From NCBI GenBank assembly GCA_012728835.1, contig JAAYEJ010000031.1:1-64000 (forward strand): DNA of 64,000 bases, in the 5' to 3' direction. Both the position numbers and the translations under genes were made by a program. This document shows, piece after piece, positions 22,274 through 42,352 of the stretch. Source of the DNA: Candidatus Brocadiaceae bacterium. GTDB lineage: Bacteria > Planctomycetota > Brocadiia > SM23-32. A model generated the notes under the pieces. That model was not told the origin of the DNA, made no database searches, and saw nothing but the letters and a program-made list of their open reading frames with translations. How positions within the stretch are numbered: the first letter of the stretch is position 1; each line of letters starts with the position of its first letter.

Positions 22274-22471
22274 GGTCGTCCGTCCTTCCCTCCATACCGG
22301 CGTCCATCATAGGGTGCGGCCCCCGCCTCATGCAACCTCCCCCCCCCCGGCGCCCCGGGCGCCCGGCCTGGAAAGCGGGACGGCGTTGGGGTATCTTCCC
22401 GGAGCCGCCTCCGTGGGCCGCCGGCGGGCGGCCCTGCGCGGTCTCAGACGGTCTTGCTGGAAGGGGACGAG

Positions 22472-23971
22472 GTGGGACTCGGAGACATCGCCGCCTGGCA
22501 ATGGGTGGGCGCCGTCGTTTCGGCCGTGCTGGTCGGGCTCTCGAAGGCGGGGTTCGGCACGGGAGCCGGCCTGCTGGCGGTGCCCCTCATGACGGTGGCT
22601 CTGGGGCCGGAGACGGCCCTGCCGGTCATGCTGCTCGTCCTGATCACCGGGGACGTCTTCTCGCTCCTGCACTATCGGGAGCAGCATGACGGGCGGGCGC
22701 TGGCCGGGCTCATCCCGGGGCTGGTCGTGGGGGTCGGGGGGGGATGGCTCGCGCTCGACTGGTTTCTGGCGCTTCCCGGCGGCGAGGTCTGGATGATGCG
22801 CGCCATCGGGTGCCTCTCGATCGCGTTCGTGGGCATCCAGTGCCTGCGGGGCCTTCAGGAGCGCCGGCTGGGCACCGAGGCGCCGGCCTACCGCCCCCGG
22901 CTGTGGCACGGCGTGGCCGTCGGCGCGGCGGCCGGGGTCTCCTCGACCGTGGCACACGCCGGAGGGCCGCTGATCGCGTTGTTCCTGCTGCCCCAGAAGC
23001 TGCCGAAGAAGGTGCTCGTCGGCACGATGATCAAGTACTTCTTCCTGGGCAATCTCGTCAAGCTCCTGCCCTACGCACAGAGCGGTCTGATGACCTCCCG
23101 CAACGGGGTGCTGGCGCTGATCCTGGTGCCCGCGGTGGTCGTCGGCACGGTGCTGGGCGTGGTGCTGCACGCCCGGTTCAGCGACCGTGCGTTCCGGGCG
23201 ATCGTCTACGTTCTGGCGCTGCTGGCCGGGCTGCTCCTGCTGGCCAGGTCGGGCCGTCCGACAGCCCCGCCGGCCCCGTCGGAGGCTCCCCCGGGGCAGG
23301 CGTCCGCCGTGGAGGTCGGCGACCCGTTCGACCGAGGCCTGGACGCCTACCGTCGCGCCGACTGGCCGGCGGCCGCAGAGGCGTTCCGGCAGGCGGCGCG
23401 CGCGGCCGGCGCACGCCGGGACCCGGCCCTGCTGAACCTGGGGCTGGCCCTCTATCGGGCGGGGCGCCTGGCGGCGGCCGAGGATGTCTTCGGCGGGCTG
23501 GGGCAGGCGCCGGACCCGCTGGTGGGCGCGGCCGCTCTGCTGAACGCCGGGAACTGCGCCTACCGCACGGCCCGCTGGGACGAGGCGATGGGCCGGTATG
23601 CCCGGGCGGTCGGCGTCTGTGCGGGCGTGTGCGCGCCCGGGCAGCAGCAGGCAGGGCTGCGCGAGGTGCGGGCCCGGGCGGAGCACAACCTGGCCCTCGC
23701 GCGCCGACGGGTCACCCATCCTCCTCTGCCCGGACCGGCGGGGGGGACCCCGCAGGCGCACACGGGCCGGGGGGAGGGGGCGGCGCTGCCGGGCGCGGAG
23801 GGGGGGCGCGACGTGCGGGACGTCCTGACGGGGTCCGCGGCGGGCTCGGAGCCGGACGGGGCGGAGGGGACGCGGGACCTGAGCGCCGTTCTGGCGGCCG
23901 TGGCGCGCCGCGACACGGGGCCGGTGCTGGCCCGCTCGCAGCCGCCGGCCGTGGGCGGCCGGCGCTGGTAG
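22472..23971 (+). CDS. TauE/SafE-family (TSUP) transporter fused to a TPR domain
   Basis: 499 aa in two parts. Residues ~8-265 are an eight-helix TSUP permease: SAVLVGLSKAGFGTGAGLLAVPLM, a second repeat with AAAGVSSTVAHAGGPLIALFLLP, and FFLGNLVKLLPY. TSUP proteins usually export sulfite, sulfoacetate or similar organosulfur anions. After a Pro-rich linker, residues ~285-410 form TPR pairs (NLGLALYRAGRLAAAEDVF, NAGNCAYRTARWDEAMGRYA), and the end is low-complexity. The GTG at 22472 is chosen for its GGAAGGGG ribosome site. TPR fusion is unusual for this ~250-residue family. Confidence 0.8.
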   Translation: MGLGDIAAWQWVGAVVSAVLVGLSKAGFGTGAGLLAVPLMTVALGPETALPVMLLVLITGDVFSLLHYREQHDGRALAGLIPGLVVGVGGGWLALDWFLALPGGEVWMMRAIGCLSIAFVGIQCLRGLQERRLGTEAPAYRPRLWHGVAVGAAAGVSSTVAHAGGPLIALFLLPQKLPKKVLVGTMIKYFFLGNLVKLLPYAQSGLMTSRNGVLALILVPAVVVGTVLGVVLHARFSDRAFRAIVYVLALLAGLLLLARSGRPTAPPAPSEAPPGQASAVEVGDPFDRGLDAYRRADWPAAAEAFRQAARAAGARRDPALLNLGLALYRAGRLAAAEDVFGGLGQAPDPLVGAAALLNAGNCAYRTARWDEAMGRYARAVGVCAGVCAPGQQQAGLREVRARAEHNLALARRRVTHPPLPGPAGGTPQAHTGRGEGAALPGAEGGRDVRDVLTGSAAGSEPDGAEGTRDLSAVLAAVARRDTGPVLARSQPPAVGGRRW

Positions 23972-24908: not shown

Positions 24909-25661
24909 CTACGGCGCCCCTTCCTTCTCAAGCTCTGCCCGCTTGCGCGCGATCAGTTCGTCCAGCGCCCTGGAGAAGTAGTCGTGTTCTTCGCCGACCT
25001 TCTTGCCGGCCCTCTGCTGGTAGGTCTTGCGCGCCCGTTCGAGGGGATCGCGCAGGAGTTCCTCGAAGGAGTCCTGCAGGATGCCCTCGCGCACGGCATC
25101 CGCGTGGTAGGCCTCGAGGTCCGCCACGAGCACGCGGGCGATCCGCCAGGCGTTCTGGTGGGCGGGGTCGGCGCTGACTTCGGGGGCGCCGTCCGTCTCG
25201 TCCAGACCCGCCCCGGCAGAAGCGGGCACCGTTGCGTCGTCATCCTCGTCCGGCGCTGCGGCCCGGGCCACGCCATCGGCGATCGCCCCTTCCACGAGGG
25301 CGTGCAGGCGATCGATACGGCGCCCGAGCGTCTCGACCACCTTGGCGATGTCCTTGGCCTGCTGGTTGAGCGCCGCGACGAGCCGCCCCTGCGTCTCCTG
25401 GATCTGGCCGAGGAACTCGCCGAGTCTGCGCAGGCGGTCCGCCGCCTCCCGCATCGAGCCCTCCAGGCCCTCGCTGCTGTCGACGTACTCGACCGTGAGC
25501 ACGGTGGCGGGCACGCGGGCGATGCCCTGTTCGGGGGGGAGGGGGGTCGAGTCGGTCTCGTCCTCCTTCCTAAGGAAGAGCTTCTTGACGAAACGGCCGG
25601 TTGCGGCGCCCGGCGGGGTCTGTTCGTCCACCGGTGTCGGCTGCACCTTGTTGTCGGCCAT
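24909..25661 (-). CDS. Cytoplasmic coiled-coil protein of unknown function
   Basis: 250 aa, no signal peptide. The N-terminal ~60 residues are Pro/charged. About 65-125 is a coiled coil (MREAADRLRRLGEFLGQ, QQAKDIAKVVETLGRRIDRL), followed by an acidic linker. The last ~80 residues contain AWRIARVLVADLEAYHADAV and LERARKTYQQRAGK. I recall a similar C-terminal helical block in uncharacterised proteobacterial and acidobacterial zinc-ribbon proteins. AGAGGG precedes the ATG. Function cannot be assigned; the coiled coil suggests a structural or dimeric protein. Confidence 0.55.
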   Translation of the reverse strand: MADNKVQPTPVDEQTPPGAATGRFVKKLFLRKEDETDSTPLPPEQGIARVPATVLTVEYVDSSEGLEGSMREAADRLRRLGEFLGQIQETQGRLVAALNQQAKDIAKVVETLGRRIDRLHALVEGAIADGVARAAAPDEDDDATVPASAGAGLDETDGAPEVSADPAHQNAWRIARVLVADLEAYHADAVREGILQDSFEELLRDPLERARKTYQQRAGKKVGEEHDYFSRALDELIARKRAELEKEGAP

Positions 25662-26024: not shown

Positions 26025-27230
26025 ATGGCTCATTCAAGCAGCCTGAGTCTGCCGTTGCTGGAGAAGGCGCGTCAGTTCACCGATTCCGACGCGGTGAAAG
26101 AGGCCGGTCTGTACCCGTACTTCCGGCCCGTCTCGTCCGCGCAGGATACCGAGGTCGTGATGAACGGGCGCAAGGTCATCATGCTCGGGTCCAACAGCTA
26201 CCTGGGTCTGACGACGCATCCGGAGGTCAAGGCGGCGGCACAGAAGGCGATCGAGGTCTACGGCACCGGCTGCGCCGGGTCGCGTTTCCTGAACGGGACG
26301 CTCGACATCCACCTGGAGTTGGAGGAGACGCTGGCACGGCTGGTCGGCAAGGAGGCCGCGATCCTCTACTCCACGGGCTTCCAGGCGAATCTGGGCGCCA
26401 TCAGCACCCTGGTCGGCAAGGACGACTACGTCATCACCGACCGGGAGGACCACGCGAGCATCGTCGACGGATGCCGGCTGAGCTTCGGGACCTTCGTGCG
26501 GTTCAACCACAACGACATGGCCTCCCTGGAAGGGCGGCTGCAGGAGCTGCCGATCGAGGCCGGCAAGCTGATCGTTGTCGACGGCGTCTTCAGCATGACG
26601 GGCGACATCGCGGAGCTGACGTCGATCTGCGAGCTGGCCGAGCGCTACCAGGCCGGCGTCATGGTCGACGACGCACACGCCATGGGCGTTCTGGGGCCGC
26701 GGGGCGAGGGCACGGCGGCGCATTTCGGCCTGACCGACCGCGTGCAGATCATCATGGCCACGTTCAGCAAGTCCTTCGCCTCGCTGGGCGGGTTCATCGC
26801 CGCCGACCTGGAGACGATCGAGTACCTGAAGCACAAGTCGCGTCCGCTCATCTTCAGCGCCAGCATCTCCCCTCCGAATGCGGCGGCCACCCTGGCGGCC
26901 GTTCGCATCATGCTGCGCGAGCCGGAGCGCATCCGTCGCCTCTGGCGCAACACGCGCATGATGACCGAAGGGCTCCGCGCAGAGGGCTTCAACACGGGCA
27001 ACTGCCAGACGCCCATCGTGCCCGTGCACGTCGGCGACATGCACACCTGCTTCCGGATGTGCAAGCGCCTGGACGAGGAGGGGGTGTTCGTCAACCCGGT
27101 CGTCGCGCCCGCCGTCGGGCCCAACGAAGCCCTGCTCCGCATCAGCCTGATGGCCACCCACAGCGAAGAGCAGATCCAGTTTGCGCTGGATAAGGTCAAG
27201 TTGGTGGGGCAGGAGCTGGGAGTCATCTGA
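26025..27230 (+). CDS. Alpha-oxoamine synthase, probably serine palmitoyltransferase
   Basis: 401 aa PLP enzyme of the BioF/KBL/SPT family. The lysine that binds PLP is Lys249 in [13 protein letters not shown]; His143 in DREDHASI and Asp215 in [11 protein letters not shown] complete the cofactor pocket. The N-terminus ([10 protein letters not shown]...[15 protein letters not shown]) resembles bacterial serine palmitoyltransferases more than BioF or KBL. SPT joins serine and an acyl thioester into 3-ketosphinganine. The next two genes resemble ceramide synthase and ceramide reductase, which supports SPT over biotin or threonine metabolism. ATG at 26025 has a GGAAGCGGGGG ribosome site. Confidence 0.85.
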
Positions 27231-27265
27231 CCTCAACCCTCGCCTCCGGGATTGAGGGCCGGCCC

Positions 27266-28378
27266 ATGGGAACAGCCGTCTGTGCCGTTACGTCCCGCGC
27301 GGACATGGGCCGGTTCATCCGCTATCCCCTGGCCCTCTATGCGGACGCCCCCCTGTTCGTCCCCCATCTTCTGAGCGAACGCAAGCGGTTCTTCGGGCCG
27401 TCCAACCCCCTGTTCGCGTTCACCGAGGTCTGCTACCTGCTCGCGCGCGACGATTCGGGCCGCCTGGTCGGCCGCACGTCCGCCCACGTCAACCGCCGGC
27501 ATAACCAGTACTGGGACGACCGCACCGGGTTCTTCGGGTTCTTCGAGTGCGAGCGGGACGCCGGCGTCGCACGGGCGCTGCTGGCCGGGGCGGAGGACTG
27601 GCTGCGTGCCCGGGGCATGGACGCGGTACGGGGGCCCCTGAACTTCTCGACCAACGAGGAGTGCGGGTTCCTGGCAGAGGGTTTCGACCGGCCGCCGTCG
27701 TTCATGATGCCGTATACGAAGCCCTACTACCCGGACCTGATGGCCGAATGCGGCTATCGGGGGGCCATGGACCTGGTCGCCTACGAGTACGACCGCCAGG
27801 GGGCGATCCCCGAACGGGTGGCGCGCTACGCCGACCGGGCGGCCCGGGCCGGGGCCGTCGTCCGCCCCGTGGACATGCGTCGCTTCGAGGCCGACGTGCG
27901 GGCCGCCTTCACCGTCTACAACGACGCCTGGGCCCGCAACTGGGGCTTCGTGCCGATGTCGGAGCCGCAGTTCGCCCACATGGCCCGCGAGCTGAAGTCC
28001 ATCGTTGAGCCGTCGTTTGCGTTGATCGCGGAAGTGGACGGGCGGCCCGTCGGTTTTCTTCTGGCCCTGCCCGACTATAACACCGTGCTGAAGAGAATGA
28101 ACGGCCGTCTCTGGCCGCTCGGCATCTTTCGTTTTCTGCTGGCGCGCAGACGGATGCACCGGGTGCGCGTGCTGACGATGGGCGTTGTCCCCGAACTCCG
28201 CCGGCGCGGCATCGAGATGGCGCTCATATACCAGATGTTCAGGAACGGCTACGAGCGCGGCTACGACGAGGGCGAGTTCTCGTGGGTCCTCGAGGACAAC
28301 GTGCTGATGAGGCGCGTTCTGGAACGTTTCGGCGCCCGGGCCACCAAGACCTACCGCATCTTCGAGAAGGCCCTATGA
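27266..28378 (+). CDS. GNAT-like acyltransferase, candidate bacterial ceramide synthase (bCerS)
   Basis: 370 aa. The N-terminus FIRYPLALYADAPLFVPHL, the block GPLNFSTNEECGFLAEGF with PPSFMMPYTKPYY, and a C-terminal GNAT-type fold (VLTMGVVPELRRRGIEMALI, then EFSWVLEDNVLMRRVLERFG) match a family that includes the Caulobacter ceramide synthase, which N-acylates the SPT product. The substrate is inferred from the flanking spt- and reductase-like genes. It begins 35 nt after the spt-like gene and its stop overlaps the next start (ATGA). Identification is from memory of the family pattern. Confidence 0.7.
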   Translation: MGTAVCAVTSRADMGRFIRYPLALYADAPLFVPHLLSERKRFFGPSNPLFAFTEVCYLLARDDSGRLVGRTSAHVNRRHNQYWDDRTGFFGFFECERDAGVARALLAGAEDWLRARGMDAVRGPLNFSTNEECGFLAEGFDRPPSFMMPYTKPYYPDLMAECGYRGAMDLVAYEYDRQGAIPERVARYADRAARAGAVVRPVDMRRFEADVRAAFTVYNDAWARNWGFVPMSEPQFAHMARELKSIVEPSFALIAEVDGRPVGFLLALPDYNTVLKRMNGRLWPLGIFRFLLARRRMHRVRVLTMGVVPELRRRGIEMALIYQMFRNGYERGYDEGEFSWVLEDNVLMRRVLERFGARATKTYRIFEKAL

Positions 28379-29364
28379 AGGTCCTCCTGACCGGTGCGAA
28401 CGGCTTCGTCGGCAGTCACGTGCTCGACGGCCTTCTGGCGGCCGGGCACGACGCCCGCCTGCTGCTGCGAGAGACGTCGAACACACGGTTCATCGCCGAC
28501 CACCTGGCGCGCACGGAGGTTCGCTACGGGTCCCTGGACGCGCCGGAGCCCCTCCGAGGCGCCGTCGCCGGCGTCGACGCCGTGATCCACTGCGCGGGCG
28601 TGACGAAGGCCGCGCGTCGCGCCGCATACCACGCGGCCAACGCCGCCGGTGCGCTCCACGTGGCCGAGGCGTGCAACGCCTCCGAGGCGACCGTGCGGCG
28701 GCTCGTGCTCATCTCCAGCCTGGCCGCCACCGGGCCGGGCACGGTCGAGGCGCCCGCCCGCGCGGACGGCCCGGCCCGCCCCGTCTCCGAGTACGGACGA
28801 AGCAAGCTGGAGGGCGAGCGGCACGTGCGCGAACGCTGCCGCGTGCCGTGGACCATCCTGCGGCCCGCGGCCGTGTACGGGCCGAGGGATCGGGACTTCC
28901 TGCTGGTATTCCGCGGCGTCCGGGGTCGGTTGGTGCCGGTCTTCGGCGGTTCGAAGCCGCTCAGCCTCGTCTACGTGGAGGACCTGGCGGACTGCGTTCT
29001 GCGGGCACTCGACGCCGAGCACGGCGCCGGGGGCACGTATCACGTCGCGCACCCCGATCCCGTCACGCAGCGTGCGTTCATGCGGGCCATCGAGGCGGCC
29101 GTGGGCGCCCGTCCCGTGCACGTACGGGTGCCGGGCCTGGCCGTTACCGCCGCGTGCGCCGCCCGGGGGGCCTGGGCACGCCTGAGCGGCCGGCCGGGCA
29201 TACTGAGCATGGACAAGGCGGCGGAACTGCGCGCGCCCGGATGGGTCTGCGACACGGCGGACGCGGCGCGCGATCTGGGCTTTGAGGCGTCCACCCGGCT
29301 TGCGGACGGGTTGGGCCGCACGGCCGAATGGTACGCGGAGGCGGGCTGGCTGCGGCATGGATGA
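28375..29364 (+). CDS. NAD(P)-dependent epimerase/dehydratase-type enzyme, candidate ceramide reductase (CerR)
   Basis: 329 aa extended short-chain dehydrogenase. NAD(P) motif TGANGFVGSH (residues 6-15), catalytic Ser114/115 in LISSLAATG and Tyr140/Lys144 in YGRSK are present; LRPAAVYGPRDRDF and SLVYVEDLADCVLRAL are typical of the superfamily. In the described bacterial ceramide pathway an enzyme of this class reduces the 3-keto group of ceramide. The assignment rests on position between candidates for bCerS and a PAP2 protein. ATGA overlap with the upstream gene; its stop also overlaps the next gene. Confidence 0.7.
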   Translation: MKVLLTGANGFVGSHVLDGLLAAGHDARLLLRETSNTRFIADHLARTEVRYGSLDAPEPLRGAVAGVDAVIHCAGVTKAARRAAYHAANAAGALHVAEACNASEATVRRLVLISSLAATGPGTVEAPARADGPARPVSEYGRSKLEGERHVRERCRVPWTILRPAAVYGPRDRDFLLVFRGVRGRLVPVFGGSKPLSLVYVEDLADCVLRALDAEHGAGGTYHVAHPDPVTQRAFMRAIEAAVGARPVHVRVPGLAVTAACAARGAWARLSGRPGILSMDKAAELRAPGWVCDTADAARDLGFEASTRLADGLGRTAEWYAEAGWLRHG

Positions 29365-30343
29365 ACACAAGGGCGGGTACCGGCTTGTCGATTGGCTCAC
29401 GCAGGGCTACCTGGCGGTCGTGGCCGCGGGGATCGTGTTGTTCGGGCCCGGGCGGCTGGCGCACTGGCCGCTCTACCTCCTGGCACACGCCGTCGCCATG
29501 GCCCTGGTGCACGGCCTGATCCGCCGGGCGGAGGGGGACGGCCGGCCGGCCGTGCGGTTCGTGCGCGCCTTCTACCCGTTCCTGCTCTACTCCTTCTTTT
29601 ACTCCGAGACCCACCTGCTGGACGATCTGATCGTCACGCGGCATCTGGACGGGGCGTTCATCGACATGGACCAGCGGCTGTTCGGCCGCCAGCTCTGCCG
29701 GGCGATGATGGCGGCGCATCCGCAGGCGTGGGTGGCCGAACTGCTCTACTTCGCCTACTTCTCCTACTACGTCATGGTCTTCGGCGTCGGGCTGGCCCTC
29801 TACCGGCTCCGACCCCGCCGGCACTTCCGGCGGTATGTCACGGTGCTCAGCGTCGTGTTCTACGTCTGCTACCTCACCTACATCGTCCTTCCCGTGATGG
29901 GCCCGCACGGGACGCACGTCGGGGTGGTCTTCTCCGGCACGCTGGCGTCGGTCGGTCCGCTGACGGCTCCCCCGTCCGTCCGGTCGGCGGTGTTCTATCG
30001 GATCATGGTTCGCCTCTACGACCTGGTGGAGCCGGAGGGCGGCGCCGCCTTCCCGAGCAGCCACGTGGCCGTGGCGCTGACGACGCTCTGGTTCACCTGG
30101 ACCCACTTCCGGAAGGTGCGGCTCGCGCACCTGGTGCTCGTCATACTGCTGTGCATCTCGACCGTCTACTGCGGCTACCACTACGCCGTGGACGTCCTGG
30201 GCGGGATCGTCACGGCCGCCCTGTTGGCGCCGGCGGGGCTCTGGATGGTCCGCAGGGCGGAGGCGCGGCAGCGGGGCTCCGTACGCGAGGGCGTGCGCGT
30301 CCCGGCGGCGGCGGGGGCCGGCTGCGGCTCCTCGGACGCGTGA
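29357..30343 (+). CDS. PAP2-superfamily membrane protein (AUR1-like PAP2_3 type)
   Basis: 328 aa, about six membrane segments. Active-site motifs are FPSSHVAVAL (His236) and GYHYAVD (His275, Asp279), giving the His/His/Asp set of PAP2 enzymes. The third motif is the PAP2_3 form (GYHYAVD), shared with AUR1-type inositol phosphorylceramide synthases, rather than the SRxxxxxHxxxD form of simple phosphatases. Members cleave or transfer phosphorylated head groups on lipids. Fourth gene of the operon, so ceramide is a plausible substrate: it could add a head group, or remove phosphate. The actual reaction is not readable from sequence. Confidence 0.8.
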   Translation: MDEHKGGYRLVDWLTQGYLAVVAAGIVLFGPGRLAHWPLYLLAHAVAMALVHGLIRRAEGDGRPAVRFVRAFYPFLLYSFFYSETHLLDDLIVTRHLDGAFIDMDQRLFGRQLCRAMMAAHPQAWVAELLYFAYFSYYVMVFGVGLALYRLRPRRHFRRYVTVLSVVFYVCYLTYIVLPVMGPHGTHVGVVFSGTLASVGPLTAPPSVRSAVFYRIMVRLYDLVEPEGGAAFPSSHVAVALTTLWFTWTHFRKVRLAHLVLVILLCISTVYCGYHYAVDVLGGIVTAALLAPAGLWMVRRAEARQRGSVREGVRVPAAAGAGCGSSDA

Positions 30344-30358: not shown

Positions 30359-31135
30359 TCAGCCGGCCGCTGCGGCGACGGCGCGCGCCATGCCGCGGAA
30401 GATCAGGTCCGATACGTGCCGGGTCCCCGGCTCCGGCAGGGCGCCCAGCAGGAGCGGGGCATCCGTGCCCGTGCAGACCAGCGGCGCACAGTCGCATCCC
30501 GGAAGGTCCCTGTACCGGGCCGCCAGGGCGGTGACGCCGCCGGCACACGCCCAGTAGACGCCGCTTGCGACGGCGCTGTCCGTGTCGGTGCCGACGGCCG
30601 TGGCGGGGACCCGGGGCGTCACGCGCGGCAGCAGGGCGGTGCTTGCGTGCAGCGCCCGGGCGCCCAGGGCGAGCCCCGGCGCGATGGCGCCGCCGGCGAA
30701 GCGGCCTTCGGGGTCCACCAGGTCCACTGTGATCGCCGTGCCGGCCGAGACGACGATGCATGGGGCGCCGGCCTCCTCCCGGGCCGCCAGGGCCAGCAGA
30801 AGGCGGTCGACGCCCACCCGGCCGGGATGGCGCACGAGCGCCGTCAGGGGCACGGCAAGGTCGCGTCCGAAGAACTCCGGACGTGCCCGCGGCTCCAGGG
30901 CCGCCGCGATTGCGCCGTCGGCGGCCGGGCAGACGGACGCAACGAGGCAGCGCAGGCCGCAGGGCAGGTCCGGGGAGGCGAGGGCGGTGCGAAGGCGGTC
31001 CGGCAAGTCCTCTACAGGCCGAGTGGGTACCCGCAGGACCGGCCGGATCGCGTCTCGGGTGATCCAGGCCCCCTTGACGGACGTATTGCCGACGTCCAGG
31101 GCCAGGAGGCATTGTGTTCGGGTCGTCGGGGCCAT
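30359..31135 (-). CDS. coaX: Type III pantothenate kinase
   Basis: 258 aa, first step of coenzyme A synthesis. Phosphate-binding LALDVGNTSVKGAWI at the N-terminus, PGRVGVDRLLLALAA and VSAGTAITVDLVDPEGRFAGGAIAPG are the CoaX signatures. The ATG at 31135 is preferred to a GTG three codons upstream because GAGG lies about 8 nt before it and overlaps the GTG. Divergent from leuS and convergent with the PAP2 gene, 15 nt apart. Confidence 0.93.
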   Translation of the reverse strand: MAPTTRTQCLLALDVGNTSVKGAWITRDAIRPVLRVPTRPVEDLPDRLRTALASPDLPCGLRCLVASVCPAADGAIAAALEPRARPEFFGRDLAVPLTALVRHPGRVGVDRLLLALAAREEAGAPCIVVSAGTAITVDLVDPEGRFAGGAIAPGLALGARALHASTALLPRVTPRVPATAVGTDTDSAVASGVYWACAGGVTALAARYRDLPGCDCAPLVCTGTDAPLLLGALPEPGTRHVSDLIFRGMARAVAAAAG

Positions 31136-31160
31136 GGCTGCCACCTCGGTGCAGGGGGTG

Positions 31161-31169: not shown

Positions 31170-31270
31170 GACGCCGGGCGGGGGGGCGAGCCGTTTCGCG
31201 GACCGTCGGTGCCCGGGCGGGGAGGCCCGGTGCGGCCCGTTGGGGGGAGCGCGGCCGTGCTCGGCCGCTG

Positions 31271-31327
31271 TCCGTGTTTGTCCGTGTGCGTCCGTGTGCG
31301 TCCGTGTGCGTCCGTGTGTGTCCGTGC
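31271..31327 (+). repeat. Decamer tandem array (TCCGTGTGCG-type) upstream of leuS
   Basis: Six head-to-tail 10-bp units beginning at 31271, 31281, 31291, 31301, 31311 and 31321. All start with TCCGTG; the last four bases vary (TTTG, TGCG three times, TGTG, CCGG). The array ends about 18 nt upstream of the leuS -35. A related array with the same TCCGT core lies before trpS. Confidence 0.9.
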
Positions 31328-31424: not shown

Positions 31425-34064
31425 ATGGAACAAGACCGTTACGTGCCGGCGCACGTGGAGGCGCATTGGCGGGAGTACTGGGACGGCGTGAGGCTGTTCC
31501 ACTGCGATGACCGCAGTACGCGGCCGGGCTTCTACTGCCTGGTCATGTTTCCGTATCCCTCGGGGGCCCTGCACGTCGGGCACGGGCGGAACTACATCCT
31601 GGGCGACGTCGTGGCGCGCTACAAGCGGATGCGCGGGTTCAACGTGCTGCATCCGATGGGCTGGGACGCCTTCGGGCTGCCGGCGGAGAACGCGGCCATC
31701 AAGCGGGGGCTGCATCCGCGCATGTCGGTGGCCCGCAACGTGGAGATCATGAAGGCGCAGATTCGCGCGCTGGGCATCGGCTACGACTGGGACCGGGAGA
31801 TCAACACCAGCGAGCCGGGCTACTACCGGTGGACGCAGTGGGTGTTCCTGCAGCTCTGGCAGCAGGGGCTGGCGTATCGGCGCGACGCGCCGGTGAACTG
31901 GTGCCCGAGCTGCCAGACCGGCCTGGCCAACGAGGAGGTCGTCAACGGCCTCTGCGAGCGGTGCGACACCGAGGTGGTCGAGAAGGACCTGCCGCAGTGG
32001 TTCTTCAAGATCACGGACTACGCGGACCGCCTGCTGAAGGACCTGGACCTGCTCGGTGCGTGGCCGGAGCGCGTGCGCCTGATGCAGGCGAACTGGATCG
32101 GTCGCAGCGAGGGCGCGCTGGTCTTCTTCAAGGTGGCGCACACGGGCGAGCCGATGCCGTGCTTCACGACGCGGCCGGACACGCTCTGGGGCGTCACGTT
32201 CATGAGCCTGGCCCCGGAGCATCCGGCGATCCCCGGCCTGGTGGCCGGAACGGACTACGAGGAGCCGGTGATGAGCTTCGTCTCCGAGGCCATCGAGCAG
32301 AATCAGGTGGCCCGCTCCTCGGACACGGTGGAGAAGCAGGGCGTCTTCACCGGCCGTCACGTGATCAACCCCGTCAACGGCGAGCGGGTGCCGCTGTGGG
32401 TGGCCAACTACGCGCTGATGGAGTACGGCACGGGGGCCGTCATGGCCGTGCCGGCGCACGACCAGCGCGACTTCGAGTTCGCGGTCAAGTATGACCTGCC
32501 CATCGTGCCCGTCATCCGTCCTGAGGACGCGGAACCGGACGCCGGGGAGATGGCCGAGGCCTACGTGGGGCCGGGCGTCATGGTCAACAGCGGTCCGTTC
32601 GACGGCACGCGCGTGCCCGAGCAGATGCACCGCGTGGTCGAGTACCTCGAAGCCAACGCGATGGGCGAGGCCGACGTGAACTACCGCCTGCGCGACTGGC
32701 TCATCAGCCGGCAGCGCTACTGGGGCGCCCCCATCCCGGTGGTGCACTGCCCGCAGTGCGGCATCGTGCCCGTGCCCGAGGACCAGTTGCCCGTGCTCCT
32801 GCCGGACGAGGTGGACTTCACGCCGCGCGGCAAGAGCCCGCTGGATTTCGTGGAGGATTTCGTCAAGACAACGTGTCCCGCCTGCGGGCGCGAGGCGCGC
32901 CGCGAGACCGACACGATCGCGCAGTGGCTCTGCTCCTGCTGGTACTTCCTGCGGTTCGTGTCCCCGCACGACGAGACGAGGCCGTTCGATCGGGACCTGG
33001 CGGATTCCTGGCTGCCGGTGGACCTGTACATCGGGGGCGTGGAGCACGCCGTCCTGCACCTGCTCTACTCGCGTTTCATCGTCAAGGTGCTGCAGGACGC
33101 CGGGCACCTGGGGTTCGCGGAGCCGTTCCGGGCGCTTTTCACGCAGGGGATGATCTGCAAGCAGAGCCACGTCTGCCGGCGCTGCCTGCGGGTCGTGACG
33201 GACGACCCCAACGTGCGCGAGCCGTGCCGCTGCGACCTGGGCATGAGCCTGGAGCGTCGCCTGCGGGAGGGCGTCGAGGTGCTCTCCAGCGCCGAGAAGA
33301 TGAGCAAGTCCAAGGGGAACGTGGTCACACCGGACCACGTCATCCGCCAGTATGGGGCCGACACCCTGCGGCTCTACACGCTGGCGATCGGGCCGCCGGA
33401 GAAGGACGCCGAGTGGCAGGACAGCGGCATCGTGGGCTACCATCGGTTCCTGAACCGCCTGTGGGATTCGATCGTCGGGCACAGGACGGGATTCGAGGCG
33501 ATCCCCCGGCAACTGCCCGACGCGGGCGGGCTGGCGCCGGAGAGCCGACGCGTCTACCGGCAGGTGCATGCGACGATCAAGCGCGTGACCGAGGACATCG
33601 AGCAGCGGTGGCACTTCAACACGGCGATCGCCTCGGTCATCGCCCTGCTCAACGAGGTCCAGAAGCTTCCCGTGCTCGGAAGCTACGTGGGCACGGAGAC
33701 CGACGAGGAGCAGCGCGACTTCAACCTGTTCCGGTTCGCCCTGGAGAGCATCGTGCAACTGCTGGCGCCGTTTGTGCCGCACGTGGCCGAGGAGCTGTGG
33801 GGCCGCATGGGCAATCCGGCGAGCATCTTCGAGCAGGGATGGCCGGAGTTCGACCCCGAGGCGGCCCGCAGCGAGGAAGTGGAACTGCCCGTGCAGGTGA
33901 ACGGTCGGGTGCGCGAGCGGCTGGTGGTCGAGCGCGACGAAGACGAGGAACTCGTCCGGGAGAAGGCGCTGAGCCTGGAGAACGTGCGGCGCTACGTCGA
34001 AGGCAAGGAACTCGTGCAGTGCGTTGTGGTGCCCAACCGCATCGTGAGCATCGTGGTGCGATGA
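31425..34064 (+). CDS. leuS: Leucyl-tRNA synthetase
   Basis: 879 aa class I synthetase charging tRNA-Leu. HIGH motif is HVGH (50-53) in [15 protein letters not shown] and the KMSKS loop is at 625-629 ([12 protein letters not shown]). A zinc-binding segment ([13 protein letters not shown] with CERCDTE) and the editing domain ([28 protein letters not shown]) are present. The C-terminus carries an anticodon-binding domain and a short VNGRVRERL tail domain. Start ATG at 31425 follows AAGGG. Its stop overlaps galK (ATGA). Confidence 0.98.
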
Positions 34065-35260: not shown

Positions 35261-36487
35261 CTATCGGCGCGCGACCTCGGCCAGGATGCGCACGATCTCG
35301 CCGAGCTGGTGTTCCTGGGTGTACTCCAGGGCGAGCGCGCGGGCGGCCCGGGAGCCGGCCTCGAGGGTCGGCGCGTCCATGTAGTGCTCCAGGAACCCGG
35401 CGAGCTGGGCCGAATCGGAGGGGTCGCGGAGGTAGAGGCCGCTCTGGCCGGGCGTGAGCAGCTCGTAGGCGCCGTTGTGGAGGCTCGTCAGGGCGGGCAG
35501 GCCGCATGCGAGCCCCTCCATGGTCACGTTTGCGCAGGGATCGTAGTAGCTGGGAAGCACCAGCAGGTCGGCGGCCGCGTAATAGGGGGCGGGCGCCACG
35601 GCCCCCACGAAGCGCATCCTGTCGGCCGCGCCGCAGCGATCGGCGAAGGCGCGCGCCGTGCGCTCACGCCCCCGCCCGACCACCAGGGCGTAGACCGGCT
35701 GCGGGGCGTCCTTGCGGGCCAGTATGCCGACGGCCTCGATGAACGTGAAGAGGCCCTTGCGCCGCCAGTCGTGGCCCACGAACACGCCCACCAGCGCGTC
35801 GGGCGGGAGGCGCAGCTCTGCGCGTACGCGCGGCCGGTGCTCCCGGCGAAGCGCCGGGTGGAGACGCGCGCAGTCCGCGCCGTTGTAGACCACCTGCACG
35901 CGCGCCGCCATGGCGGGGTAGTGGCGGGCGATCTCGCGGCGCACCATGTCGGAGTTGGCGATGATGCACCTCGGCCCGGGCGGTGCGTAGAGCCGGTCGT
36001 CGATATGGATGCGCAGCCGTTCGCGCACGCTGAGCGCGCGCGACAGCCGGTTGAACGCCCGTGCGGGCAGGCCGCGGTAGCTTCTCTGGCGCTGGCGCAC
36101 GTACTCGCGCTGAACGCCTCCGCCCGGCCGCACCACGTCGGCGCCCCAGCACTTCTGGTCGCTGAAGGTCACCTCGGCGTCCTCGCGGGCCAGGGCCGCC
36201 CGTGCGGCGCGGGCCAGGGCCAGGTCGCGGAACGCCCGCGGCACCCGGGGCAGCGCCAGCGGCACGATCTGCACGCCCTCGGCGCCCGCCGCCTCCGCGG
36301 CGCCCGCCGCCTCCGCGGCGGCCGGCGCCTCCGCGGCGGCCGGCGCCTCTGCGGCGGCCGCGCGCGCGTCCGGCGTGAGGATGCGCACCTGCACGCCCTC
36401 GGCACGCAGCCGGCGCACGAGGGAGGCCAGGAAGCTCTCGGCGCCGCCGCTGGGCGCGAACTGTTTGCAGGCGATGGATATGCGCAT
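35261..36487 (-). CDS. RfaG-like glycosyltransferase (GT4) with Ala-rich insertion
   Basis: 408 aa GT-B enzyme. N-terminal MRISIACKQFAPSGGAESFLASLV and FSDQKCWGADVVRPGGGVQREY, and C-terminal GHDWRRKGLFTFIEA and YYDPCANVTMEGLACGLPALTS resemble LPS-core glucosyltransferase I (WaaG/RfaG). Between the first beta-strands lies a run of AAAEAP/AAEAAGA units coded by imperfect 18-bp DNA repeats (36281-36360), absent from typical members. It probably adds a sugar to lipid-linked core oligosaccharide. Start is the ATG at 36487, where homology begins. Convergent with galK. Confidence 0.85.
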   Translation of the reverse strand: MRISIACKQFAPSGGAESFLASLVRRLRAEGVQVRILTPDARAAAAEAPAAAEAPAAAEAAGAAEAAGAEGVQIVPLALPRVPRAFRDLALARAARAALAREDAEVTFSDQKCWGADVVRPGGGVQREYVRQRQRSYRGLPARAFNRLSRALSVRERLRIHIDDRLYAPPGPRCIIANSDMVRREIARHYPAMAARVQVVYNGADCARLHPALRREHRPRVRAELRLPPDALVGVFVGHDWRRKGLFTFIEAVGILARKDAPQPVYALVVGRGRERTARAFADRCGAADRMRFVGAVAPAPYYAAADLLVLPSYYDPCANVTMEGLACGLPALTSLHNGAYELLTPGQSGLYLRDPSDSAQLAGFLEHYMDAPTLEAGSRAARALALEYTQEHQLGEIVRILAEVARR

Positions 36488-36545
36488 GGCCGTCCCGAGC
36501 CGGAGGGCACGGCACAGCAGTATCGCCCACGGCCGGGCGCCGTGC

Positions 36546-36655
36546 AAGGGGCGGCGCCCGCCCGTGCAAGGGGCGGCGCCCGCCCGTGTAAGGGGCGGCG
36601 CCCGCCCGCGCACGGGGCGGCGCCCGCCCGTGTAAGGGGCGGCGCGCCCGCGTCG
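36546..36655. repeat. 22-bp tandem repeat, five copies
   Basis: Unit AAGGGGCGGCGCCCGCCC plus GTGC/GTGT. Copies begin at 36546, 36568, 36590, 36612 and 36634; one copy reads CACGGGGCGG instead of the AAGGGG start. Each unit carries a GGCGCC palindrome. It fills the ~250-nt gap between the RfaG-like gene and the dehydrogenase, which are divergent, so it sits in their shared regulatory region. Not CRISPR: no spacers. Confidence 0.9.
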
Positions 36656-42032: not shown

Positions 42033-42352
42033 GGTCGTCGTGCCTGATCAGAGGAAGCCTGGATTATATGCCAGGCAGCCGGCGGCTGCAACACGACGCG
42101 CGGCCCGCGGCACGGATCGTTCTCGGGCACAACGTACGAACGAAAGGAACCGCAGAGGACGCCGAGGACGCAGAGAACGGCCAAGAACGGCAAAGCACCA
42201 CGATAACGGCCAGGCACGGCACGACGAAAACGGCCAAGGAAGGCGAAAGACGGCCAAGGAAGGCAGAGGACGCGGAGAACGGCCAAAAACGGCCAGGGAC
42301 GGCCACGAACGGCCAAGACGGCCGAGGACGGCCGAGCGGGCGCGCTTGCCGG
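42033..42352. repeat. 320-nt gene-free stretch of degenerate ACGGCCAA repeats
   Basis: Between two leftward genes, about 42140-42335 is built of imperfect short units related to ACGGCCAA (at least nine copies, for example AACGGCCAAG and GACGGCCAAG), mixed with GAGGACGC/GCAGAGGACGC motifs. One strand is strongly purine-rich and CG-skewed. No coding frame is supported. It resembles simple-sequence expansion rather than a mobile element. Confidence 0.7.

Follow-up and report, generated by a model that had tools for sequence, protein, structure and literature searches.

A conserved planctomycete operon that joins predicted ceramide-synthesis genes to an AUR1-like PAP2 gene

The operon and its conservation in relatives

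The window analysed here, a stretch of 64,000 nt from a metagenome-assembled genome (MAG) of the Planctomycetota, carries at positions 26025-30343 a compact operon of four plus-strand genes, which encode a serine palmitoyltransferase (SPT)-like enzyme, a tandem-GNAT protein, an epimerase-type reductase and a PAP2_3 membrane protein (Table 1). The host genome amounts to 3.07 Mb in 82 contigs and is 96.9% complete. We consider it likely that the operon specifies every step of a short pathway leading to a phosphosphingolipid, with steps 1 to 3 assigned from homology and gene clustering, and step 4 from fold, residues and co-occurrence.

A sequence-only reading of this DNA had described four same-strand genes of these domain types, and both points were borne out, as domain searches returned Aminotran_1_2/SPT, GNAT, NAD-epimerase and PAP2_3. 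The 'ATGA overlaps' of the same reading apply to a single junction, where the GNAT and reductase genes share 4 nt (ATGA); the reductase and PAP2 genes overlap by 8 nt, and a 35-nt gap separates the SPT and GNAT genes. The PSSH and GYHYAVD motifs that it had named are present in the fourth protein.

Table 1. Genes and predicted functional motifs of the four-gene operon
Feature	Position in window	Strand	Basis
SPT-like pyridoxal phosphate (PLP) enzyme, 401 aa	26025..27230	+	NF047600 model, PDB match 8guh/3a2b, tree
Predicted PLP-binding lysine codon, K249 in TFSK	26769..26771	+	Motif position
Tandem-GNAT N-acyltransferase, bCerS-like, 370 aa	27266..28378	+	Acetyltransf_1 and Acetyltransf_6, AlphaFold2 (AF2) fold, SPT linkage
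Epimerase-type NAD(P) reductase, CerR-like, 329 aa, NAD-binding GANGFVG and YGRSK motifs	28375..29364	+	Epimerase PF01370, NDUFA9-type PDB matches
PAP2_3 membrane enzyme, AUR1-like, putative ceramide phospho-head-group transferase, 328 aa	29357..30343	+	PF14378, profile, AF2 fold
FPSSH motif, putative catalytic His236	30050..30064	+	F232, P233, S234 and H236 invariant in 19/19; aligns with FPSLH of AUR1
HYAVD motif, His275 and Asp279	30179..30193	+	At least 90% conserved in 19 sequences; aligns with HYFVD of AUR1

Among 58 genomes, the host being one of them, seven (again with the host) encode a GNAT protein that shares 56% identity or more with that of the window, and in all seven the SPT homologue adjoins the GNAT gene and the reductase gene follows it, some copies being cut at contig ends. 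Identities to the window proteins in the six non-host genomes are 66-76% for SPT, 56-62% for GNAT, 48-57% for the reductase and about 45-57% for PAP2. The order SPT-GNAT-reductase-PAP2 is kept in 5/5 assessable genomes (the host, G000, with G001, G004, G006 and G010); the G006 PAP2 gene is cut by a contig end, that of G004 lies on a separate contig behind the final 50 reductase residues, and the contigs of G003 and G005 stop inside the reductase gene. The neighbourhood survey proposed by the sequence-only reading finds the order kept, in six relatives, as far as the contigs extend, and this retention of gene order in six other genomes excludes a chance arrangement.

The operon is flanked by minus-strand genes at 24909-25661 (no Pfam match) and 30359-31144 (type III pantothenate kinase, CoaX). 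In a member of the same family (G001, locus L049) synteny extends to these flanks, taking in TauE, both minus-strand genes and CoaX. In a class-level relative (G010, locus L051) the four genes alone are shared and the flanks are not, which is why we regard the four-gene operon itself as the conserved unit. The G001 locus also carries a second, diverged reductase-like gene and PAP2 gene downstream of the operon and CoaX (L049:10519-13268).

Genes 1 to 3 and the predicted ceramide backbone

In the proposed pathway, the SPT-like enzyme would join serine, or a related amino acid, to a fatty acyl thioester to give a 3-keto long-chain base, the tandem-GNAT enzyme would N-acylate this base, and the CerR-like reductase would reduce the 3-keto group to yield dihydroceramide. 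That genes 1 to 3 make the ceramide backbone is, in our judgement, very probable.

Gene 1 is an SPT-like PLP enzyme with a predicted condensation activity. Its top PDB match is SPT (8guh/3a2b, 465.6 bits), with the KBL entry 1fc4 at 285.7 bits, and its identity is 54% to 3a2b, 42% to 2x8u, 41% to Escherichia coli KBL and 33% to E. coli BioF. Lys249 is presumably the PLP lysine, a role taken from the alpha-oxoamine synthase family, and the protein has the SPT-type C-terminal RISLMATH stretch of 3a2b, not found in KBL or BioF.

Grouping of gene 1 with BioF/KBL, inside a biotin locus conserved in relatives, was an outcome that the sequence-only reading had set against its own proposal; the matching rival assignment is that gene 1 is KBL or BioF and its neighbourhood a coincidence. 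These enzymes belong to the same PLP superfamily, and the gene 1 protein reaches 407 bits with the KBL model and 387 bits with that of BioF. However, in a tree of 56 of the 106 collected rows (a quick method with no bootstrap, SPT fragments shorter than 280 aa being left out), a branch with a Shimodaira-Hasegawa-like approximate likelihood ratio test (SH-aLRT) value of 100 places the solved SPTs 3a2b and 2x8u, together with all cluster SPTs including gene 1, on one side. On the other side fall E. coli KBL, E. coli BioF (on a very long branch), nine class relatives and a separate KBL-type paralogue of the host (L002). The genes next to the operon, one without a Pfam match and one for a pantothenate kinase, are not biotin genes, and the operon is conserved in relatives. 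The KBL/BioF assignment was rejected on the model scores and the tree split, and we regard it as extremely improbable. In the same tree, the SPT of a record titled Deltaproteobacteria (L050, DAOVBC010000052.1) groups with those of planctomycetes and other members of the Planctomycetes-Verrucomicrobia-Chlamydiae (PVC) group, which may reflect a mislabelled bin or a transfer.

A further alternative is that genes 1 to 3 make an N-acyl amino-ketone or amino-alcohol lipid other than ceramide, built for instance on alanine, cysteate or glycine. Alpha-oxoamine synthases differ in the amino acid they use, the PDB matches of gene 1 include a cysteate-fatty acyltransferase (28eh) at 242 bits, and 1-deoxyceramides and lysine-ceramides have been described from the Black Sea (Ding 2024, PMC11334938). 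Against this, the SPT references score far higher (465.6 bits), the R-SLMATH stretch resembles 3a2b and not KBL or BioF, and a 1-deoxy product would offer the AUR1-like enzyme no 1-hydroxyl. A ceramide product thus remains our preferred reading, the non-ceramide lipid being quite improbable.

Judged on its modelled fold, gene 2 encodes a predicted GNAT-fold N-acyltransferase, here termed bCerS-like; Caulobacter bCerS is itself a GNAT-type N-acyltransferase. PDB sequence searches with the gene 2 protein gave short or weak matches only and no close solved relative. The AF2 model, built from 41 sequences (predicted local distance difference test, pLDDT, 91.8), has a tandem GNAT fold that matches MAB_4324 best (Z 25.3), then glucosamine N-acetyltransferase, mycothiol synthase and Eis, with N-myristoyltransferases near Z 16. 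A contig scan with this protein found at least 355 relatives, the best 80 of which are the loci used in all neighbour counts below; the record titles name, among others, Nitrospirota, Zixibacteria, Gemmatimonadota, Deltaproteobacteria, Planctomycetota and Latescibacterota. An SPT gene is present at 69/80 of these loci, the reductase at 59/80 and both at 56/80. The best homologues are thus mostly neighbours of SPT and reductase genes, which speaks against the counter-case named by the sequence-only reading, closest homologues that act on non-lipid substrates; more distant ones do not always have such neighbours. A second GNAT gene in G006 (L017), 31% identical, has no partner genes in its 4 kb.

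GNAT homologues also occur in a plasmid collection, where 45 records match and five of eight regions examined have an SPT-like gene within 15 kb. SPT, GNAT and reductase genes stand in a row on Rubrobacter and Streptomyces plasmid records, a Sphingomonas plasmid region has the SPT-like gene within that distance, and the E. coli (yghO) and Rahnella records combine the GNAT homologue with genes for an SPT-like enzyme, an acyl carrier protein (ACP), a reductase and a fatty acyl-AMP ligase. On the Roseomonas and Diaphorobacter plasmids the GNAT gene lies just downstream of LptF/LptG-type genes, with one gene between, and Caulobacter cerS (CC_1154) is numbered adjacent to lptG2 (CC_1155) (PMC11324152).

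These GNAT loci yielded several side observations. E. coli YghO (L128:2510-8107, NZ_MG591698.1) is 34% identical to the window GNAT protein and its cluster adjoins lptFG; the yghO region is likely to be a ceramide cluster in some E. coli, and none of the papers listed for yghO showed a link to sphingolipids. The Diaphorobacter IncP plasmid pDCB2 (L133), typed as conjugative, carries CDP-alcohol transferases, LptF/LptG, GNAT, P450 and acyl-AMP ligase genes in a Caulobacter-like phosphosphingolipid region, a possible route of horizontal spread. A gene of the lipoteichoic acid (LTA)-synthase family follows SPT-GNAT-reductase on a Rubrobacter plasmid (L130:5704-11296), perhaps as a phosphoglycerol head-group module replacing PAP2. 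Two GNAT genes lie near each other within one cluster at L058, L108 and L112.

Gene 3 encodes an extended short-chain dehydrogenase/reductase of the Epimerase family. NDUFA9-type complex I subunits are among its PDB matches, and CerR has been described as NDUFA9-like (PMC11087976). The same paper puts CerR in the periplasm; in the window reductase the Rossmann glycine motif begins at residue 7, leaving no room for a classical signal peptide.

The AUR1-like PAP2 enzyme and its association with ceramide genes

The fourth protein matches PAP2_3 with 74.3 bits (gathering score 27). A profile of 19 sequences, the window protein and 18 homologues from cluster loci, has AUR1 as its top PDB match (E=1e-8, with 216 profile positions aligned) and as the sole one spanning most of the protein; PgpB-type entries align in the catalytic part only. 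With the AF2 model (pLDDT 89.4), Foldseek returned two matches at E<0.001, both AUR1, and VIA-align placed AUR1 at Z 19.3 (root mean square deviation, rmsd, 5.7 over 262 residues; 9ivc) and Z 19.2 (rmsd 4.1 over 261). The next fold neighbours are LpxE (Z 15.2 over 163 residues) and, farther off, SMSr 8ijq (Z 11.5 over 203); other structures of the sphingomyelin synthase (SMS) type were not among the 50 VIA-align rows listed, an absence that is uninformative. The likeness to AUR1, first claimed from motifs, thus holds across the whole fold. The gene 4 protein is probably an AUR1-like enzyme that would transfer a phospho-head group from a glycerophospholipid donor to the ceramide 1-hydroxyl, with release of diacylglycerol.

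Many members of the PAP2 superfamily are phosphatases, and the enzyme might instead dephosphorylate or recycle lipids, with ceramide-phosphate, phosphatidate or an isoprenoid phosphate as examples of its substrate, beside a working ceramide pathway. Phosphatases (LpxE, G6PC, PgpB-type) are indeed its next fold neighbours, at Z 13-15. Gene 4 retains the His-His-Asp triad but lacks the phosphatase motifs C1 (KxxxxxxRP) and C3 (SRxxxxxHxxxD), and the same holds for its relatives. Among 24 PAP2 open reading frames (ORFs) scoring at least 200 bits, repeat copies of the same gene included, C1 or C3 occurs in none, FPSxH in 24/24 and HYxxD in 22/24, the remaining two being cut at a contig end. By contrast, C1 or C3, with the arginine that the linked proteins lack, is present in 11/13 PAP2 ORFs scoring below 100 bits, the exceptions being L091, a fragment of a linked gene, and L145. 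The canonical phosphatase reading was down-weighted on the absence of C1 and C3 and on AUR1, a ceramide transferase, being the nearest fold and the best profile match over most of the protein, and we consider it unlikely.

The association with ceramide genes also points to a head-group transferase. After SPT and the reductase, PAP2 is the commonest neighbour family at the GNAT loci, with 18 members at 17/80 loci, once two larger families (62 and 30 loci) that are antisense frames over the SPT/GNAT region are set aside. The count retains loci where the contig stops close to the cluster; a partial PAP2 gene at a contig end (L091) is outside the 17, and the matches at L077 and L103, which score 69 and 45 bits and carry a canonical C1, were kept out of the AUR1-like class. 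With up to 8 kb surveyed per side, 16/18 members are no more than 1.3 kb away from the GNAT gene, and on the SPT tree linkage to PAP2 requires at least five changes across 33 scored rows, 15 of them with PAP2. Ketoacyl synthase and ResB are the next commonest neighbours (14 loci each); Cytochrom_C_asm, M48, RodZ-like, NfeD, sigma-54 regulator, EamA and redox-protein families also recur. Among these recurrent families there is no obvious further head-group gene, and ketoacyl synthase and the EamA transporter (six loci) could be lipid-related. In Nonomuraea the same four genes are clustered in differing orientations; the SPT-like gene of Nonomuraea gerenzanensis is spread over two frames (L228:9300-10723), maybe through a frameshift or misassembly.

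Co-occurrence extends across the phylum. In a survey of 392 genomes, host included (GNAT at E<=1e-30, AUR1-like PAP2 at E<=1e-12), GNAT was found in 119 and PAP2 in 93, with both in 75, GNAT only in 44, PAP2 only in 18 and neither in 255. PAP2 is therefore carried by 75/119 GNAT-positive and 18/273 GNAT-negative genomes (Fisher p 6e-32, a value that overstates independence, as the genomes are related). The 75 genomes with both genes come from 32 families, and the two genes lie within 2.2 kb on one contig in 18/75.

A number of observations weigh against the interpretation of the operon as a complete phosphosphingolipid pathway. The gene 1 protein scores 597.7 bits against NF047600, the NCBI SPT equivalog of the Cytophaga-Flavobacterium-Bacteroides (CFB) group, and because the cut-off is 640 we class it as SPT-like and not under that model. 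On the plasmids of Roseomonas, Diaphorobacter and Chloroflexota, no SPT gene was found in the 15-kb region that holds the GNAT homologue. The operon contains no ACP or acyl-AMP ligase gene, whereas clusters of the Caulobacter and E. coli type do. At one locus (L052) the three ceramide genes are followed by 7 kb of sequence without a PAP2 gene, and one AUR1-like protein without C1 or C3 (L140, 127 bits) belongs to a genome, G009, whose best SPT match reaches only E 7e-5. The window PAP2 protein scores 28.4 bits against NF052609, the model for phosphatidylinositol (PI)-dihydroceramide synthase, whose cut-off is 480. In the phylum survey, finally, 44/119 GNAT-positive genomes show no AUR1-like PAP2 gene, 18 PAP2-positive genomes show no GNAT, and the genes are not close in the assembly in 57/75 genomes with both.

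Elsewhere in the window, a single open frame at 22454-23971 fuses a TauE/SafE permease domain with TPR-like repeats. Tandem arrays lie at 31270-31326 (10-bp x5.7, between the pantothenate kinase gene and a divergent gene at 31425, from its motifs presumably a leucyl-tRNA synthetase), 36280-36361 (18-bp x4.6), 36540-36645 (22-bp x4.8) and 42174-42333 (10-bp x15.9, imperfect). An Rfam search of the window returned two tRNAs and nothing else.

Head-group donor and comparison with known systems

Our first guess for the donor in the host is phosphatidylethanolamine (PE), with PI as the main alternative, and the donor may differ between lineages. The host has a phosphatidylserine (PS) decarboxylase, and PssA and PgsA matches over cut-off; the presence of PS decarboxylase says little, since 335/392 genomes of the phylum carry it. 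No PI-phosphate synthase over cut-off was found in the host. The host PssA match covers residues 373-536 of an unusually long 597-aa frame (L157:1264-3057, C31 near 112.9 kb).

The inositol alternative, under which the PAP2 enzyme would be an inositol phosphorylceramide (IPC) synthase and the product phosphoinositol-dihydroceramide, is a sub-case of the favoured pathway and has evidence on both sides. AUR1 itself is an IPC synthase, NF052609 weakly matches 3/5 window-type PAP2 proteins, the window's included (28-35 bits, E 1e-6 to 1e-8), and one host CDP-alcohol transferase matches archaetidylinositol- and PI-phosphate-synthase models below cut-off. Inositol-phosphate synthase (PF01658) occurs in 62/75 genomes with GNAT and PAP2, 29/44 with GNAT only, 13/18 with PAP2 only and 99/255 with neither, and in two members of the host's family that have the cluster (G001 and G004). 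On the other hand, no PF01658 match was found in the host genome or in G003, G005, G006 and G010 (67-94% complete), the link between PAP2 and PF01658 is weak within GNAT-positive genomes (62/75 against 29/44, p 0.046), and the NF052609 scores are far under 480. The lack of PF01658 in the host had been considered as a general argument against an inositol head group, and was dropped when the phylum survey, in which PF01658 co-occurs with PAP2, pointed the opposite way. An inositol head group is plausible for many members of the family, and for the window enzyme IPC synthase activity is in our view fairly unlikely.

The ethanolamine alternative can be stated more broadly. It is conceivable, if on balance doubtful, that PAP2 genes beside cerR encode a bacterial ceramide phosphoethanolamine (CPE; EPC/PE-dihydroceramide) synthase, a family that would span Planctomycetota, Gemmatimonadota, Nitrospirota, Deltaproteobacteria, Actinomycetota and Bacteroidales. 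A CerR-like gene directly precedes a PAP2 homologue in three Bacteroidales, Bacteroides finegoldii (L229:4706-6669, 10-nt overlap), Phocaeicola massiliensis (where the pair seems to be divided between two records) and Prevotella F0039; in Parabacteroides distasonis the reductase is present and PAP2 was not found in a 7-kb stretch. The B. finegoldii PAP2 protein is 28% identical to that of the window, and at E<=0.001 it is matched neither by the PI-dihydroceramide synthase model nor by any other NCBIfam model. Standing beside a CerR-like gene without an NF052609 match, it is a candidate EPC synthase or second IPC enzyme; the weak NF052609 match of the window protein speaks against a special tie between the two. 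In Bacteroides thetaiotaomicron, deletion of the PI-dihydroceramide synthase BT_1522 leaves PE-dihydroceramide unaltered (Heaver 2022, PMC9246714), a homology search with the Drosophila enzyme returned no EPC synthase, and IPC traces remaining in the BT_1522 mutant were ascribed by the authors to a second enzyme (Sartorio 2022, PMC8791184). The PAP2 gene adjoining a CerR-like gene in three Bacteroidales makes the EPC-synthase question testable by one knockout.

To our knowledge, bacterial ceramide head-group enzymes are known only for Caulobacter ceramide phosphoglycerate (CPG) lipids, Bacteroides phosphoinositol lipids and some glycolipids. A conserved AUR1-like gene that accompanies ceramide genes in a number of phyla could help to find the missing ones, and its position beside ceramide genes predicts phosphosphingolipids in many uncultured Planctomycetota.

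The closest precedent is the spt-bcerS-cerR ceramide pathway of Caulobacter, reportedly described by Stankeviciute et al. The three enzyme kinds are common to both systems (PMC11087976; PMC11324152), and the window differs in presenting them as one compact operon in which an AUR1-like enzyme replaces the Caulobacter ceramide kinase and CPG genes. Within the phylum, Ding 2024 (PMC11334938) reported Spt-like proteins in 138 Planctomycetota MAGs, from Black Sea MAGs of 38 phyla, with bCerS and CerR co-localised in the Spt tree. The sequence-only reading knew of no description of the four-gene arrangement in this lineage; the ceramide genes had thus already been published for Planctomycetota, and the claim stands for the head-group gene, as the main text of that paper does not mention PAP2 or AUR1. 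The ceramide part of the operon is accordingly not new and is a member of a known pathway, and the fourth gene, an AUR1-like PAP2 gene within a ceramide operon, is the new part. A search for bacterial PAP2-type SMS or CPE synthases, or AUR1-like genes in ceramide clusters, found none describing such a PAP2 gene among the papers listed, a result that does not prove absence, as subscription journals are mostly outside the coverage.

Among characterized head-group enzymes, BT_1522 of Bacteroides is likewise AUR1-like and acts on bacterial dihydroceramide (PMC9246714; PMC8791184), but it sits in an inositol-lipid operon, whereas the window PAP2 gene sits in a ceramide operon and its product scores far below the PI-dihydroceramide synthase cut-off. 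Human SMSr (8ijq) shares the fold of a PAP2-type ceramide phospho-head-group transferase, at a greater distance than AUR1. The nearest likeness is to yeast AUR1 (9vj3/9vj4/9ivc), the inositol phosphorylceramide synthase, with which the window protein has the overall fold and the FPSxH...HYxxD signature in common at a sequence identity of 16%.

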